Shown here one piece after another: positions 7,979 through 53,411 of a stretch of 64,000 bases of DNA (positions are counted from its first letter, which is position 1; every line of letters starts with the position of its first letter). The stretch is from positions 2,356,001 through 2,420,000 of the forward strand of contig NZ_AP019307.1 of NCBI RefSeq assembly GCF_003945325.1. Direction: 5' to 3'. The DNA is from Nocardioides baekrokdamisoli (lineage in GTDB: Bacteria > Actinomycetota > Actinomycetes > Propionibacteriales > Nocardioidaceae). Position numbers and translations under genes: made by a program. The notes under the pieces are model-generated. The model searched no databases and had not been told where the DNA came from. It saw only the letters and a list, made by a program, of their open reading frames with translations.

Positions 7979-8044
7979 CGCCGAAACTCGGCATCCGTCA
8001 CGCCGAAACCCGGCATCCGTCACGCCGAAACCCGACATCCGTCA
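7979..8044 (+). repeat. Three tandem 22-base repeats upstream of groES
   Basis: Copies at 7979-8000, 8001-8022 and 8023-8044, each beginning CGCCGAAAC and ending CATCCGTCA, with one or two differences per copy. They fill the gap between the methyltransferase start and the groES CIRCE operators. A 22-base period is about two DNA turns. The same period and the same CGCCGAAA start are seen at the clpX-valS junction. Confidence 0.9.
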
Positions 8045-27710: not shown

Positions 27711-28991
27711 ATGGCTCGCATCTCTGACGGTGCAGACCTGCTCAAATGCTCCTTCTGCGGCAAGAGCCAGAAGCAGGTCAAGAAGCTCATCGCTGGTCCG
27801 GGTGTCTACATCTGTGACGAGTGCATCGATCTGTGCAACGAGATCATCGAGGAGGAGCTCGCCGAGGGCTCCGAGGTGGGCTTGGGCGAGCTGCCGAAGC
27901 CGAAGGAGATCTTCGAGTTCCTGAACGCGTACGTGATCGGCCAGGAGCAGGCGAAGAAGTCGCTCGCAGTCGCGGTGTACAACCACTACAAGCGCGTCCA
28001 GGCCGGGCTTCAGCCGCAGCATGTCTCCGGCAAGCACTCCAAGGACGAGCAGGTCGAGGTCGCGAAGTCGAACATCCTCGTGATCGGCCCGACCGGTTGC
28101 GGCAAGACGTACCTGGCACAGACGCTCGCGCGGATGCTCAATGTGCCGTTCGCGATCGCGGACGCCACGGCGCTCACCGAAGCCGGCTATGTCGGTGAGG
28201 ACGTCGAGAACATCCTGCTCAAGCTGATCCAGGCTGCTGACTACGACGTCAAGAAGGCCGAGACCGGGATCATCTACATCGACGAGATCGACAAGGTCGC
28301 CCGCAAGGCGGAGAACCCGTCGATCACGCGCGACGTGTCCGGCGAGGGTGTGCAGCAGGCACTACTGAAGATCATCGAAGGAACGACCGCGTCCGTCCCG
28401 CCGCAGGGCGGTCGCAAGCACCCGCACCAGGAGTTCATCCAGATCGACACCACGAACGTGCTGTTCATCGTGGGTGGTGCCTTCGCGGGGCTGGAGAAGA
28501 TCATCGAGAAGCGGGCGAGCAAGAAGACGCTCGGCTTCGGGATCGAGACGAATGCCTGGGGCGAGCCCGGTGGCGATGATCTGCTGGCGCAGGTCCGGCC
28601 CGAGGACCTGGTCAACTTCGGCCTGATCCCGGAGTTCATCGGCCGCCTGCCGCTGATCGCGAGCGTGTCGCCCCTCGACCAGGCTGCGCTCGTGCAGATC
28701 CTGGTGGAGCCGCGCAACGCGCTCGTCAAGCAGTACCAGAAGCTCTTCGAACTCGACGGTGTCGAGTTGGAGTTCACCGAGGACGCCGTTCAAGCGATCG
28801 CCGATCGAGCGCTCGAGCGCAAGACCGGCGCACGAGGCCTCCGCTCGATCATCGAGGAGGTCCTGCTGCACGCGATGTACGACGTCCCGAGCCGCGGTGA
28901 CGTCGCCAAGGTGATCGTCAACGCGGACGTGATCCTGAACGACGGTGCGCCGGAGCTCATCCTCATCGACGAGAAGAAGAAGTCAGCCTGA
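27711..28991 (+). CDS. clpX: ATP-dependent Clp protease ATP-binding subunit ClpX
   Basis: 426-residue AAA+ unfoldase. N-terminal four-Cys zinc finger ([17 protein letters not shown]), Walker A GPTGCGKT, Walker [10 protein letters not shown], pore loop GYVGEDVE, sensor-type FIGRLPL and arginine sensor [12 protein letters not shown]-type loop for ClpP docking (TLGFGIETN). Ribosome site AGGAGGA seven bases before the ATG, in contrast to leaderless clpP1, so clpX has its own translation signal. Ends in a mirrored 22-base repeat array. Confidence 0.97.
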
Positions 28992-29248
28992 GCGCCGAAA
29001 GGTGAGGATTTCACCGCCGAAAGGTGAGGAAATCCCGCCCGAGATGTGAAGAAGTCCCGGCTGAACCGTGAGGTTCGCCGGGACTTCTTCGTACGCTGCT
29101 GTGGCTCAGGCCGGAAGGACCGACCGCTCCGCCGCCGGCGCCCGCGGCCGCTCGAGAAGGATGAGGTCCACCTCTCGGGCAGGAAATCCTCACCTCTCGG
29201 CTCGGATTGCTTCACCTTTCGGCGGTGAAAACCTCACCTTTCGGCTCA
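28989..29248. repeat. Mirrored 22-base repeat array between clpX and valS
   Basis: From the clpX stop, four plus-strand units start at 28993, 29015, 29036 and 29058 (period 21-22); the first two share CGCCGAAAGGTGAGGA, the last two are diverged. From the valS stop, read on the minus strand, four units cover 29245-29228, 29223-29206, 29201-29184 and 29180-29163, again with GCCGAAAGGTGA-type cores. The two arms are inverted copies over at least three units and each begins at the stop codon of its gene. A strong hairpin and about 70 bases of GC-rich spacer lie in the middle. Confidence 0.85.
29048..29090. terminator. Central hairpin between convergent clpX and valS
   Basis: 13-base perfect arms (29048-29060, 29078-29090: GAAGAAGTCCCGG and its complement) enclose a second stem GAACC/GGTTC with loop GTGA. 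No T-run in either direction. Likely bidirectional terminator. Confidence 0.85.
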
Positions 29249-31840
29249 GGCCTCGGCGGGGACGAGCTCCGCGGTGACGGTGATCTCGGCGGCATCCGTC
29301 GCCTCGAAGACGAGCGAGCCGACGATCTTGCCGGTACGTCGAAGATCACCCTCGGCAGCCTGCGCGCCGGCCAGCAGGGCAGCCGGTCCGGACACCACCG
29401 CTGACGACACCTCCGTGCGCTGTGACACCTTGGCCGTCGACTTGGCGCCGCGTACGCCGGCGAGCGCAGCTGCCACGCCGACGAGGAGGGTCGGGTCCGC
29501 ACCGATCGATGGGAGTTCCGATTCGGTCGGCCACGTCGCGAGGTGGACCGAGCCGTCCTGCCACCACGACCACACCTCTTCGGTGGCGTACGGCAGGAAG
29601 GGCGCCAGCAGGCGTAGGAGTGTGTGCAACGCCTGCGCCAGGGCAGCCTTCGCCGAGGCCTGACCCGCGGCGCCGATCGTGCCGTCACGGTCGTACGCGC
29701 GCTCCTTGACGAGTTCGAGGTAATCGTCGCAGAAGGCCCAGAAGAACCTCTCCGCGATCTCGAGCGCGGTCGTGTAGTCGTACGCCTCGAACGCCTCGGT
29801 TGCCTTGGCCACGACGACCGCGAGATCACCCAGCAGGGCGAGGTCGATCGGCTCCGTGATCGCCGCCGGGTCGAGCGTACGAGCGCCGACACCGAACTCG
29901 TCGTCGAGGACGAATCGAGCTGCGTTGAGGACCTTGAGCGCGAGCCGTCGGCCGACCTTCATCTGGGTCTCGTCGAACGGCGAGTCCAGGCCGGAACGAG
30001 TCATCGCTGCGCGCCAACGGACGGCGTCCGCGCCGTACTTCTCGAGGATCTCCGTCGGGACGACGACGTTGCCCTTGGACTTCGACATCTTCTTGCGGTC
30101 CGGGTCGAGGATCCAGCCGGAGAGCATCGCGTGCGACCACGGCACCACGCCGTGTTCGAGGTGCGAACGCACGACCCGACTGAAGAGCCAGGTCCGGATG
30201 ATGTCGTGGCCCTGGGTGCACAGGTCCATCGGGAAGACCCGCGCAAACAGGTCCGGGTCGGTCTCCCAGCCGCCTGCGAGTTGAGGCGTCAGCGACGAGG
30301 TGGCCCAGGTGTCCATCACGTCCGGGTCGCCGATGAAACCACCGGGGACGCCGCGCTGGTCGGCTGTGTAGCCAGCCGGCACGTCGGTCGACGGATCGAC
30401 CGGGAGCTCCGCCTCGGTCGGCACGAGCGGGGTGGCGTAGTTCGGCTCGCCATCGGCGTCCAGGGCGTACCAGATCGGGAACGGGATGCCGAAGTAGCGC
30501 TGGCGACTGATCAGCCAGTCGCCGTTGAGGCCGCTGACCCAGTTGTCGTAGCGGTGTTTCATGTGCTCCGGCAGCCAGGTGAGCTTGCCGCCGTCGGCCA
30601 CCAGATCCGCGCGCAGGTCGGCGTTGCGACCGCCGTTGGTGATATACCACTGACGGGTCGCCACGATCTCGAGCGGTTTGTCGCCCTTCTCGAAGAAGTT
30701 CGCCATGCGCTGCGTCGGCTTCGGCTCGCCATCCAGGTCGCCGGTCTCGCGCAGTTTGGCAACCGTCGCCTCGCGGGCCGAGTGCGCGGTCTTGCCCTTG
30801 AGGTCCTCGTACGCCGCCACGCCGTCGGTGGACGTCACCCATCCGGGGGTCTCGCCCGAGAAGCGACCGTCGCGGCCGATGACCGTACGCACCGGCAACT
30901 GCAACTCACGCCACCACTGGACATCGGTCAGGTCGCCGAAGGTGCAGGACATCGCGATGCCGGCGCCCTTGTCGGGCTCGGCGGCCGGGTGGGCGAGCAC
31001 CGGGACCTCGACTCCGAAGATCGGCGAGGTGACCGTCGTACCAAAGAGGGGCTGGTAGCGCTCGTCGTCGGGGTGCGCGATCAGTGCGACGACCGAGACG
31101 ATCAATTCGGGACGGGTCGTCTCGATGAAGATCGGGGTGCCGTCGGCCTGGTGGAAGGCGACCCGGTGATACGCCCCCGGGTACTCGCGAGCCTCGAGCT
31201 CGGCCTGGGCGACGGCTGTCTGGAAGGTGACGTCCCACAGCGTCGGCGCCTCCTGCAGGTACGCCTCCCCGCGGGAGAAGTTGCGCAGGAAGGCGCGTTG
31301 GCTGGCGGTCTGGGCTGTCCGGCCGATCGTCGTGTACTGGTAGGACCAGTCGTACGAGACGCCCAGAGTGCGCCAGAGCGACTCGAAGACCTTCTCGTCC
31401 TCCTCGACCAACTGGGCACACAACTCAATGAAGTTCGGTCGCGAGATCGGGATCTGCTGAGCCTTCGGGTCAACCGTGGCCGGCGGGGTGAAGTCCGGGT
31501 CGTACGGCAGCGTCGGGTCGCAGCGGACGCCGAAGTAGTTCTGCACCCGGCGCTCGGTCGGCAGACCGTTGTCGTCCCAGCCGATCGGGTAGAAGACGGC
31601 CTTGCCGCGCATCCGCTGGAAGCGGGCGATGACGTCCGGGTGCGTGTAGGAGAACACGTGTCCCACGTGCAGCGAACCGGAGACGGTCGGCGGGGGAGTG
31701 TCGATCGAATAGACGTTCTCGCGCGGCTGGGTGCGGTCGAAGGCGTACGTGTCGTCGGCCTGCCACTGTGCCGACCACTTCGCCTCGAGGCCCTCGAGGG
31801 CTGGCTTCTCGGGGACGTTCACCGCGCGCGCGTCAGACAT
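29246..31840 (-). CDS. valS: Valine--tRNA ligase
   Basis: 864-residue class Ia synthetase. HIGH motif as [10 protein letters not shown] near residue 56, KMSKS motif [11 protein letters not shown] near residue 595, CP1 editing domain between them, then the anticodon-binding helical domain. Opening residues [10 protein letters not shown] and [21 protein letters not shown] are those of the ValS form without the long C-terminal coiled coil of the E. coli enzyme, which explains the shorter length. TAGGAT, seven bases, ATG on the minus strand indicates a leaderless message. Convergent with clpX; valS next to folC is usual. Confidence 0.96.
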
Positions 31841-50555: not shown

Positions 50556-53411
50556 ATGACCAACGACAGCAGCACCACGCCCGAAGCAACCACCGACGTC
50601 ACCGTCGAGGAGTCCTCCGCTCCGGCGAAGAAGGCTCCCGCCAAGAAGGCAGCAGCCAAGAAGGCGACGACGTCGGCGCCCGCCAAGAAGGCAGCAGCGA
50701 AGAAGGCCCCGGCGAAGAAGGCCGCAGCAGCGGCCGAGGACGACGAATCCGCCGCTCCGGCGAAGAAGGCTCCCGCGAAGAAGGCTGCTGCCAAGAAGGC
50801 GCCGGCGAAGAAAGCCGCCGCGAAGCGACCGGCGAAGAAGGCAGCAGCGGCTCCCGTCGAGCCGCTCGAGGTCGAGGCAGCCGACGAGACGTCTGCCCCC
50901 GCAGCGCCTGCGGCTCTGTTCCAGGTCCCGGAGAAGGCCCCTGCCGCGAAGCGTCGCTCGAAGGCTGTTGCCAAGCCGGCTCCGGAGCCCGCGGAGGACG
51001 ACGAGCTCGAGCTCGACGCCGAGGACGGCGACGCGGCCGGCACCGATGACGAGGTCGTCGAGGCAGACATCGACGCGGACGACGCCGAGGACGAGGACGC
51101 CGAGGAGAACGAGGACGGTTCGCCGACCCCCGCACGCCGTCGCCGTCGTCGTGGTGGCCGCCGTCGCCGCAAGGGCCCGAACTCCGGTGGCAACGCCCAG
51201 GCCGGTGACGACGACGCCGAGGACGACGAGGACGAGACCGACCCCGAGAACATTGAGAGCGACGACCAGGTCGACGGCGAGGAGACCGAGGGCGAAGGCG
51301 GTTCGGCCAACTCGCGTCGCCGTCGCCGTCGCCGTCGTGCCGGGGAGTCCGGTGGCACCTCGGACGATGACCCGGAGAACACCGTCACCCGAGTACGCGA
51401 GACTCGTACGGCGGAGCAGCAGATCACCTCGATCTCGGGCTCGACCCGTCTCGAGGCGAAGAAGCAGCGTCGACGCGAGGGCCGTGAGGCCGGCCGTCGT
51501 CGCGCCCCGATCGTGTCCGAGGCTGAGTTCCTGGCCCGCCGCGAGTCGGTCGACCGCGTCATGGTCATCCGCCAGCGCGAGGACCTCACTCAGATCGCTG
51601 TGCTCGAGGACAAGGTCCTCGTCGAGCACTACGTCGCCCGCGAGTCTCAGACCTCGATGATCGGCGACATCTACCTCGGTCGCGTCCAGAACGTGCTGCC
51701 CAGCATGGAGGCTGCGTTCGTCGACATCGGCAAGGGCCGCAACGCGGTGCTGTACGCCGGTGAGGTGAACTGGCCCTCGCTGGGCTGGAAGGACGGCCAG
51801 CCGCGCAAGATCGAGTCGGTGCTGTCAGCCGGCCAGACGATCCTGGTCCAGGTCACCAAGGACCCGATCGGACACAAGGGTGCCCGCCTGACCTCGCAGA
51901 TCAGCCTCGCCGGCCGCTTCCTCGTGTACGTACCCGACGGCACCACCTCCGGTATCTCCCGCAAGCTCCCGGACACCGAGCGCAACCGTCTCAAGGCGCT
52001 GCTCAAGGAGATCGTTCCGGACACCGCCGGCGTCATCGTGCGTACGGCTGCCGAGGGCGCTTCGGAGGAGGAGCTGACCCGCGACGTCGAGCGCCTGAAG
52101 GCCCGTTGGGCCGACATCGAGGCCAAGGTCGGCGGCAATGCGCCGCAGCAGTTGCACGGTGAGCCGGACCTGACCCTGAAGGTCGTGCGCGACCTGTTCA
52201 CCGAGGACTTCTCCAAGCTTGTCGTCCAGGGCGATGACGCGTGGGCGACGGTCCAGGGCTACGTCCAGCACGTCGCGCCGGATCTCGAGGAGCGCCTGGA
52301 GCGCTTCGCGGTCGGCGACAGTGCCGGTTCGAACAACGGCAAGGACGCGTTCCAGACGTACCGCATCGACGAGCAGATCTCGAAGGGCCTGGACCGCAAG
52401 GTCTGGCTCCCGTCCGGCGGCTCGCTGATCATCGATCGCACCGAGGCGATGACCGTCATCGACGTCAACACGGGCAAGTTCACCGGCTCCGGGGGCAACC
52501 TCGAGGAGACGGTCACGCGCAACAACCTCGAAGCCGCCGAGGAGGTCGTACGCCAGCTCCGGCTGCGCGACATCGGCGGCATCATCGTCGTCGACTTCAT
52601 CGACATGGTCCTCGAGTCGAACCGTGATCTCGTCCTGCGCCGCATGGTCGAGTGCCTCGGCCGGGACCGTACCCGCCACCAGGTCGCCGAGGTCACCTCT
52701 CTCGGACTGGTCCAGATGACCCGCAAGCGGATCGGTACCGGTTTGCTCGAGGCGTTCTCCAGCAACTGCACCCACTGTCAGGGACGCGGCGTCGTGGTCC
52801 ATGACCACCCGGTCGAGGACAGGGGCGGCAACTCCGGCAGCGGGGCTGGTGGCGAGGAGCGGCGTCCGCGCCGTTCACGTGGTGGTCGGGCCGCAACGGT
52901 CGTTGCCGAGGTTGACGGCGACCACAAGATCCCGTCGCCGGCGACCTTCGCCGCAATGGCCCGCCACGAGGGCGAGGATGGTGAACTCACCGACTCCGTC
53001 GAGGGCGATGCCGTCGTCGCGGTGGAGCCAGAGACCGAGGTCGTGGAGACTCCTGCCCAGGCAGAGGTCGAGGCCGTGACGGTCGAGGCTGAGCAGTCCG
53101 AGGCGCCGACGGAGGAGTTCGTGGCCGCCGTTGTGGACGAGCCGGTCACTGAGACCGCTGTGGAGGTCGTTGAGGCTGCGCCTGAGACCCCCAGCGTGCC
53201 GGAAGCGCCGAAGGTATTGACGCGTACGCGCGGCGGTGCCCGTCGCGCTGTCGTATCGACCGGTGAGGCGGTCTCGCTGGTCGCGGACGACGTCGCACCC
53301 GCGGTGATCGAGACGCCGGCAGTCTCGGCGGTGACGACGCGTACGCGTGGTGCGAAAGCGCCCGCAGCCGAGTCGCCGGTCGCTCACGTCCCGGTCAAGA
53401 AGAAGCGCTAG
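50556..53411 (+). CDS. rne: Ribonuclease E/G with basic AKK-repeat N-terminal tail
   Basis: 951 residues. Residues about 23-100 are Ala-Lys repeats (APAKKAPAKKAAAKK) like the tails of actinobacterial HU or histone H1; then acidic and Arg-rich blocks to about 265. The catalytic part has an S1 domain (MIGDIYLGRVQNVLPSMEAAFVDIG), DNase-I-like Mg site VIDVNTGKF and VDFIDM, and the zinc-link CTHCQGRG. A Glu/Val-rich acidic tail follows to the end. Central enzyme for mRNA decay and rRNA/tRNA maturation. Start ATG 50556 by ribosome site TAGGAG. Confidence 0.93.
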   Translation: MTNDSSTTPEATTDVTVEESSAPAKKAPAKKAAAKKATTSAPAKKAAAKKAPAKKAAAAAEDDESAAPAKKAPAKKAAAKKAPAKKAAAKRPAKKAAAAPVEPLEVEAADETSAPAAPAALFQVPEKAPAAKRRSKAVAKPAPEPAEDDELELDAEDGDAAGTDDEVVEADIDADDAEDEDAEENEDGSPTPARRRRRRGGRRRRKGPNSGGNAQAGDDDAEDDEDETDPENIESDDQVDGEETEGEGGSANSRRRRRRRRAGESGGTSDDDPENTVTRVRETRTAEQQITSISGSTRLEAKKQRRREGREAGRRRAPIVSEAEFLARRESVDRVMVIRQREDLTQIAVLEDKVLVEHYVARESQTSMIGDIYLGRVQNVLPSMEAAFVDIGKGRNAVLYAGEVNWPSLGWKDGQPRKIESVLSAGQTILVQVTKDPIGHKGARLTSQISLAGRFLVYVPDGTTSGISRKLPDTERNRLKALLKEIVPDTAGVIVRTAAEGASEEELTRDVERLKARWADIEAKVGGNAPQQLHGEPDLTLKVVRDLFTEDFSKLVVQGDDAWATVQGYVQHVAPDLEERLERFAVGDSAGSNNGKDAFQTYRIDEQISKGLDRKVWLPSGGSLIIDRTEAMTVIDVNTGKFTGSGGNLEETVTRNNLEAAEEVVRQLRLRDIGGIIVVDFIDMVLESNRDLVLRRMVECLGRDRTRHQVAEVTSLGLVQMTRKRIGTGLLEAFSSNCTHCQGRGVVVHDHPVEDRGGNSGSGAGGEERRPRRSRGGRAATVVAEVDGDHKIPSPATFAAMARHEGEDGELTDSVEGDAVVAVEPETEVVETPAQAEVEAVTVEAEQSEAPTEEFVAAVVDEPVTETAVEVVEAAPETPSVPEAPKVLTRTRGGARRAVVSTGEAVSLVADDVAPAVIETPAVSAVTTRTRGAKAPAAESPVAHVPVKKKR

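Follow-up and report, generated by a model that had tools for sequence, protein, structure and literature searches.

The described systems closest to the repeat array analysed here are the REP and BIME elements, dispersed intergenic families that lie mostly downstream of ORFs and occur as inverted pairs. The available excerpt of one study locates REPs mainly behind ORFs, where the adjoining genes are convergent or unidirectional, states that they may supply stop codons, and gives their tag as GTAG or CGTC (PMC3733652). According to a partial text of another, REPs within 15 nt of a stop stall ribosomes, a distance within which 446 of the 4,072 E. coli REPs fall (PMC12306157). The REP/BIME unit itself is a palindromic stem-loop. 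Tandem repeats at gene ends are also represented by the mycobacterial MIRUs and intergenic VNTRs, which follow gene orientation and vary in unit number, as do the arrays described below; their unit measures about 50-100 nt against 22 nt here, and the mirrored subclass that we describe is a further difference. Plasmid iterons are 22-bp direct repeats as well, but our arrays are chromosomal, at some fifty sites that mostly follow stop codons. Likely plasmid iterons did appear in one contig of our searches (L061, positions 1-130), where 22-nt repeats built on a CGAAAGGTGAA core are lined up immediately ahead of a gene that we take, from the way it reads, to encode a replication initiator.

The locus under study lies between clpX and valS of Nocardioides baekrokdamisoli, within the 64,000-nt stretch of DNA that was analysed (the window). 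The two genes are convergent, their stop codons are 254 nt apart, and a row of 22-nt units runs inward from each stop. The features are listed below in window coordinates; families A and B are the two groups of 22-nt repeats found in the genome.

27711..28991, plus strand: clpX, the gene upstream of the plus arm, stop TGA at 28989-28991; ClpX confirmed by NCBIfam.
28996..29083, plus strand: plus arm, four 22-nt family A units, CGARA starts at 28996, 29018, 29040 and 29062; units 3-4 degenerate.
29048..29090, no strand: inner hairpin of 14 perfect base pairs and a 15-nt loop, overlapping plus units 3 and 4.
29156..29243, minus strand: minus arm, four 22-nt family A units, 5' ends at 29243, 29221, 29199 and 29177; the fourth degenerate.
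29246..31840, minus strand: valS, the gene upstream of the minus arm, stop (complement) at 29246-29248; a ValS per NCBIfam.
7979..8044, plus strand: three-unit array of family B between divergent genes, upstream of a groES-like gene that we presume to be groES; an exception in placement.

An earlier note on this DNA had proposed mirrored arms of four units in opposite orientation, each beginning at the stop codon of its gene, and this layout was borne out. A chain scan detected four units per arm in 22-nt steps, with the first CGARA 4 nt past the clpX stop and 2 nt past the valS stop. The match is good in units 1-2 of the plus arm and in units 1-3 of the minus arm; plus units 3-4 are degenerate, and unit 4 of the minus arm consists of the core only, with one mismatch. 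Repeat finding returned inverted arms at 28994-29064 and 29175-29245 (71 nt, 82% complementary) and placed the hairpin strands at 29048-29061 and 29077-29090. A hairpin between the arms had been claimed with 13 bp; it is present, one base pair longer. The long stem expected in read-through RNA is strongly predicted: the locus folds at -165.6 (plus strand) and -166.6 kcal/mol (minus strand), with z-scores of -12.5 and -11.3, and 0 of 200 shuffles folded equally well on either strand. Outer stem and inner hairpin coexist in the predicted fold, and since the hairpin uses bases of plus units 3 and 4, the outer stem is not a clean pairing of four units with four. The note's two exclusions are also supported. 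Coding is unlikely because a 22-nt period keeps no reading frame, and CRISPR is rejected by sequence because the whole 22-nt unit repeats without unique spacers. The immediate neighbours are clpX and valS.

A strong predicted stem past the stop is what mirrored loci have in common with intrinsic terminators, from which the arrays differ in that single arms are unstructured, units occur genome-wide and no clear U-tract follows. A terminator scan restricted to loops of 3-8 nt, with the long stem outside its reach, gave no U-tract site after the stem on the plus strand of the locus; with the same loop limit it gave one weak site on the minus strand (28998-28983, 5 pairs, tail CTTCTTCTTC; 0.4 expected), which is the outer edge of the plus arm read from the valS side. 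Rfam at gathering scores returned two tRNAs only from the 64-kb window. Separately, the valS product is better fitted by the NCBIfam exception model 'alt_ValS' (1451 bits) and misses the cut-off of the common valS model.

The genome (2,965,302 bases, 2.97 Mb, one contig) contains two families of head-to-tail 22-nt repeats: family A, the type found at clpX–valS, and family B, the type at 7979-8044. Counts vary with the pattern chosen: GCCGAAAGGTGA has 23 copies (reversed control 1); CGARAGGTGA-N12-CGARAGGTGA at up to 3 mismatches has 38 matches (control 0), of which that at position 2523691 resembles chance; and, when up to 3 mismatches are allowed, the family B unit is matched 95 times (control 0). 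We sampled 222,507 bases in 48 segments chosen around pattern matches of this genome, called genes with a codon-usage script that reproduces the clpX and valS stops, and called arms with a gene-blind chain rule. This yielded 78 arms. Six fall within called genes and were excluded from locus counts; the other 72 are distributed over 51 loci. Arms contain 2-6 units, spaced by 22 nt in 130 cases, 21 in 11 and 23 in 4 under a rule that permits only 21-23. Both families start with CGARA. Among family A first units (n=26), positions 1-10 are conserved at 81-100%, nine of positions 11-22 at 42-69% and three at 92-96%; in family B (n=46) most of the first unit is conserved. Further copies were present when the genome was searched, so that the local accident which the earlier note had allowed for did not materialise: the clpX–valS array is one of about fifty arrays in the genome.

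Most arrays sit directly behind a gene. In the sample, 42 of the 72 arms begin 1-8 nt past a same-strand stop, the commonest offsets being 4 nt (15 arms) and 3 nt (11), against a null of 5.1% for a random intergenic base and strand to fall within 12 nt of a same-strand stop. The stops beside arrays (TGA 31, TAG 8, TAA 3), compared with all called stops in the sample (TGA 180, TAG 30, TAA 8), indicate that no single stop codon is targeted. Thirty loci lie between convergent genes (13 mirrored), 19 between co-directional genes (7 mirrored) and two between divergent genes. Since any array between convergent genes is sense for one of them, orientation is informative only between co-directional genes, where all 12 single arms point in the sense direction; two of these (1056157, 1931644) have a degenerate second arm. 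A called stop lies 2-13 nt upstream in 8 of the 12, and in 7 of those 8 it is closer than the next gene. Mirrored loci (20 of 51) face inward in 20 of 20 cases, plus arm before minus arm, the seven co-directional ones being the informative ones; the scan counts 31 of 51 loci as single-armed, or 29 once the two with a degenerate second arm are set aside. The reading as a 3'-end element stands insofar as the array adjoins both genes at their 3' ends, and fails as a rule of one arm per gene, 7 of the 20 mirrored loci being co-directional. For thirty of the 72 arms, no stop was called in the 0-12 nt upstream: five of these have a called stop 10-20 nt within the chain, and the others are missed small genes, far stops or real exceptions. 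Only one of the eight called convergent pairs in the window has an array, which is thus no general terminator.

The predicted structure is confined to part of the set. Over 150 nt from the array start, the mean fold z is -6.29 for mirrored arms (n=41), -0.73 for single arms (n=31) and -1.27 for other gene ends in the window (n=54). Folded as three-unit arrays, 25 unit families have a mean z of 0.09 against shuffled units, though a few, such as those of genomes G666 (z -3.6) and G202 (z -1.8), do fold. A hairpin per unit is thereby rejected as a common feature. A stem as the general rule fails too: the 31 single arms (z -0.73) have no RNA structure beyond that of ordinary gene ends, which excludes a stem as the shared function of all loci. 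As modelled by folding, it is the mirrored subclass, the clpX–valS locus included, that has the stem.

The two arms of a mirrored locus resemble each other more than they resemble arms elsewhere. Identity of the outermost unit is 84.1% within against 69.1% between loci for family A (12 loci, p 2e-5) and 86.9% against 79.6% for family B (9 loci, p 0.002), and the likeness is weaker at the second unit (A p 0.007, B p 0.27), all p-values treating loci as independent. Locus 1616973 has a spacer variant common to both its arms. Sense-arm spacers come in two forms, GGAAATCC and GGATTTCC. In yeast, template switching homogenises the arms of inverted repeats and inverts their spacers, and it can do so to the arms without selection, as described in the part of the source available (PMC8604942); the presence of both spacer forms in sense arms is what such an inversion would give. 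The likeness reflects either selection for pairing or copying between the arms, and the data fit both.

When relatives are compared, the strict family A pattern (1 mismatch) occurs in 1 of 149 family genomes, that of N. baekrokdamisoli itself. Pairs of CGARAGGT at 22 nt are present in 8 of the 118 genomes of the genus; class-wide they turned up in 3 of 394, one of these perhaps by chance. Of 294 family genomes, 57 contain three CGARA at 22-nt steps, and 18 of the 57 do so at least 10 times; the reversed control gave 9 genomes with at most 2 matches each. Outside the family, this pattern occurs 1-4 times in each of 26 genomes out of 314 (control 11), a weak excess with dense arrays absent. Genomes with listed CGARA matches differ in the remainder of the unit. 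Placement recurs: in four relatives 33 of 44 arms begin within 12 nt of a stop, and among 27 single loci of relatives a same-strand stop lies within 20 nt in 8 by script and in more by eye, with at least one array (L220) antisense to the preceding gene. In named genomes the family A two-unit pattern gave 18 stretches; by eye, among the stretches listed, only that of Nocardioides sp. Iso805N is alike, with perhaps those of Leekyejoonella and Streptomyces, and the remaining listed ones resemble other tandem repeats, iterons or coding sequence. A single-copy stretch was the one family B match in viral contigs and was rejected as chance. Short 22-nt arrays of another kind, with CGAAAGGTGAC cores, occur on four contigs of the Prevotella MAG SC0317_S2_2 (L053, L055, L062, L064).

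We also scanned 1478 post-stop regions of 12 genomes, our own included, for blocks with at least 15 of 20 matches at a given lag, independently of any motif. Lag 22 was found in 21 post-stop regions, against 1 of 1476 in-CDS and 0 of 1470 regions upstream of starts; the 21 correspond to 18 separate gaps, as three pairs are two sides of one gap. Lags 44 (11/1/1 post-stop/CDS/upstream), 26 (7/0/0) and 16 (7/0/0) are likewise specific to post-stop regions, and lag 41 (10/0/4) reflects a different element in G131. Ten of the 21 regions belong to G146, where some arrays have the opposite orientation, and five to G029, which the CGARA pattern had missed. CGAR was present at that phase in sense in 6 of the 21 and as the reverse complement in 7, with about 30% expected by chance for each; CGARA as a universal tag was therefore rejected, being imposed by the search patterns and near chance in the motif-free set. 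At a stricter threshold in four 200-kb regions, period 22 made up 4 of 13 post-stop matches, none of them in the region from our own genome. Thus 22 is the commonest period but not the sole one, and what the species have in common is period and position, not the motif. Two further kinds of repeat were seen in these genomes: post-stop tandem repeats with 26-nt and 16-nt periods in G079 and G168 (L316-L325, L341-L345), and, in nine post-stop regions of G131 (L336-L340), a REP-like, 41-nt spaced palindromic element, CCGTTTGGTCCCAAACCG.

Matched sites show how fast the arrays turn over. Behind clpX, a 22-nt CGARA array is present in 0 of 28 readable relatives (of 29), some of which have other repeats by eye. 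Behind fumC, where the N. baekrokdamisoli genome has none, arrays of 22-nt period were seen by eye in 6 of 19 genomes (G190, G199, G202, G130, G029 and, degenerate, G666), each with its own unit. A third site is a convergent pair that we take, by sequence, to be an ABC-F ATPase gene and a MarR-like gene; in 14 of 20 genomes the neighbour is MarR-like as judged by its C-terminus. The stop-to-stop gap is 6 (our own genome), 3, 10 and 14 nt in four genomes that lack an array, 31 nt with one unit in G199, 75 nt with three units in G190, 64 nt with three units in G666, and 45 nt with two units of another sequence in G202; the other six of the 14 have gaps of 30, 102, 112, 193, 265 and 539 nt without such an array. 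Identity between G190 and G199 at clpX is 92.6% across 3,088 nt, with another 483 nt at 86.1%, and their gaps at the ABC-F/MarR pair differ by 44 nt, that is 2x22, which shows that whole units were gained or lost at an otherwise tiny gap. Together with the further copies in the genome, these sister-species lengths fit the repeat-amplifying process that had been offered as one origin of the clpX–valS array.

Like REPs and BIMEs, the arrays form dispersed intergenic families, mostly downstream of ORFs and with inverted pairs (20 of 51 loci). They differ in the unit, which is not palindromic and runs head to tail (mean z 0.09), in lacking the GTAG or CGTC tag (families A and B begin CGARA), and in starting most often 3-4 nt behind the stop. 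RAYT mobilisation was also rejected: none of 40 genomes gave a match to the Y1_Tnp domain, neither the 20 with abundant CGARA arrays nor the 20 lacking a CGARA match (two of the latter, G029 and G079, have other arrays), in a search that was positive in 5 of 14 known genomes used as control. With palindrome, tag and transposase all failing, the arrays are REP-like in position and may act like REPs, but are not REPs.

We consider it about an even chance (probability roughly 0.5) that the clpX–valS element belongs to a dispersed, species-specific set of 3'-end intergenic repeats with REP/BIME-like placement and a non-palindromic, head-to-tail 22-nt unit. Copies would spread to gene ends and there grow or shrink by whole units. 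Template switching at the inverted repeat would keep mirrored arms complementary, and selection for pairing may contribute. Transcripts of clpX and valS that run past the stop would fold into a stem starting a few nt behind it, and the stem could set the 3' end of the mRNA or shield it, and reduce read-through towards the opposite gene; such effects have been discussed for REPs. The set may serve to define or protect 3' ends, to stall ribosomes or to bind a protein, or may have no function. If this reading is right, a bacterial family has a class of gene-end repeats whose 22-nt spacing and post-stop position last while the sequence turns over between species, a class of which we found no description in the open-licence papers searched. 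REP-like gene-end repeats would then be possible without RAYT transposases, and sister species with one and three units at a single site make spread, growth and the effect on mRNA 3' ends directly testable.

A possible but doubtful alternative is that the repeats are selfish or purely mutational, without host function: copied to gene ends, amplified by slippage, and homogenised by template switching, with gene ends simply the places that tolerate them. Patchy distribution and fast turnover, as behind clpX, are expected of such repeats, as are length shifts by whole units. The far end of an array seems to provide the stop codon of some convergent genes, and the next-gene distance is exactly -5 at nine convergent arms, which fits as well. 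The two sense-arm spacer forms agree with the inversion described in the excerpt cited above (PMC8604942). Tolerance alone does not, however, predict the sense orientation of 12 of 12 single arms between co-directional genes, or the upstream stop being nearer than the next gene in 7 of 8 loci.

That orientation would suit a directional protein-binding DNA array, a reading that we regard as unlikely. A protein on each 22-bp unit, about two helical turns and hence nearly one face of the helix, would turn gene ends into polar roadblocks or nucleoid sites. The head-to-tail units with a step nearly fixed at 22 bp fit such an array, as does the contrast in family A first units between positions 1-10 and the nine variable positions among 11-22, and single arms would need no RNA structure if a protein reads them. 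Against it, the unit sequence varies between species and CGARA is not general, its frequency in the motif-free set (6 of 21 sense, 7 of 21 reverse complement) being near the 30% of chance; the likeness of arms within a locus is also left unexplained.

It is rather improbable that Nocardioidaceae-like bacteria possess a dedicated trans-acting system which recognises the 22-nt unit, adds mostly sense copies close behind stops and homogenises them genome-wide, so that each species would have its own version at dozens of gene ends, with period and position conserved and sequence free.

The ends of IS21, Tn7 and Mu carry repeated transposase sites, and inward inverted arms with repeated sites are reminiscent of them, but remains of a transposon or MITE ending in repeated 22-bp transposase sites are very improbable, since 29 of 51 loci have one arm where two inverted ends are expected at every copy, arms vary from 2 to 6 units, central sequences differ by eye among ten loci that revealed no common internal gene, and sister species have unequal unit numbers at one site. 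No target-site duplication was seen by eye in the flanks of these ten loci.

Tandem repeats of another type occur elsewhere in the window. Positions 50622-50840 hold 15-base repeats, CCGGCGAAGAAGGCC, perhaps the tail of an alanine/lysine-rich protein, and GAC/GAG repeats lie at 51071-51242.
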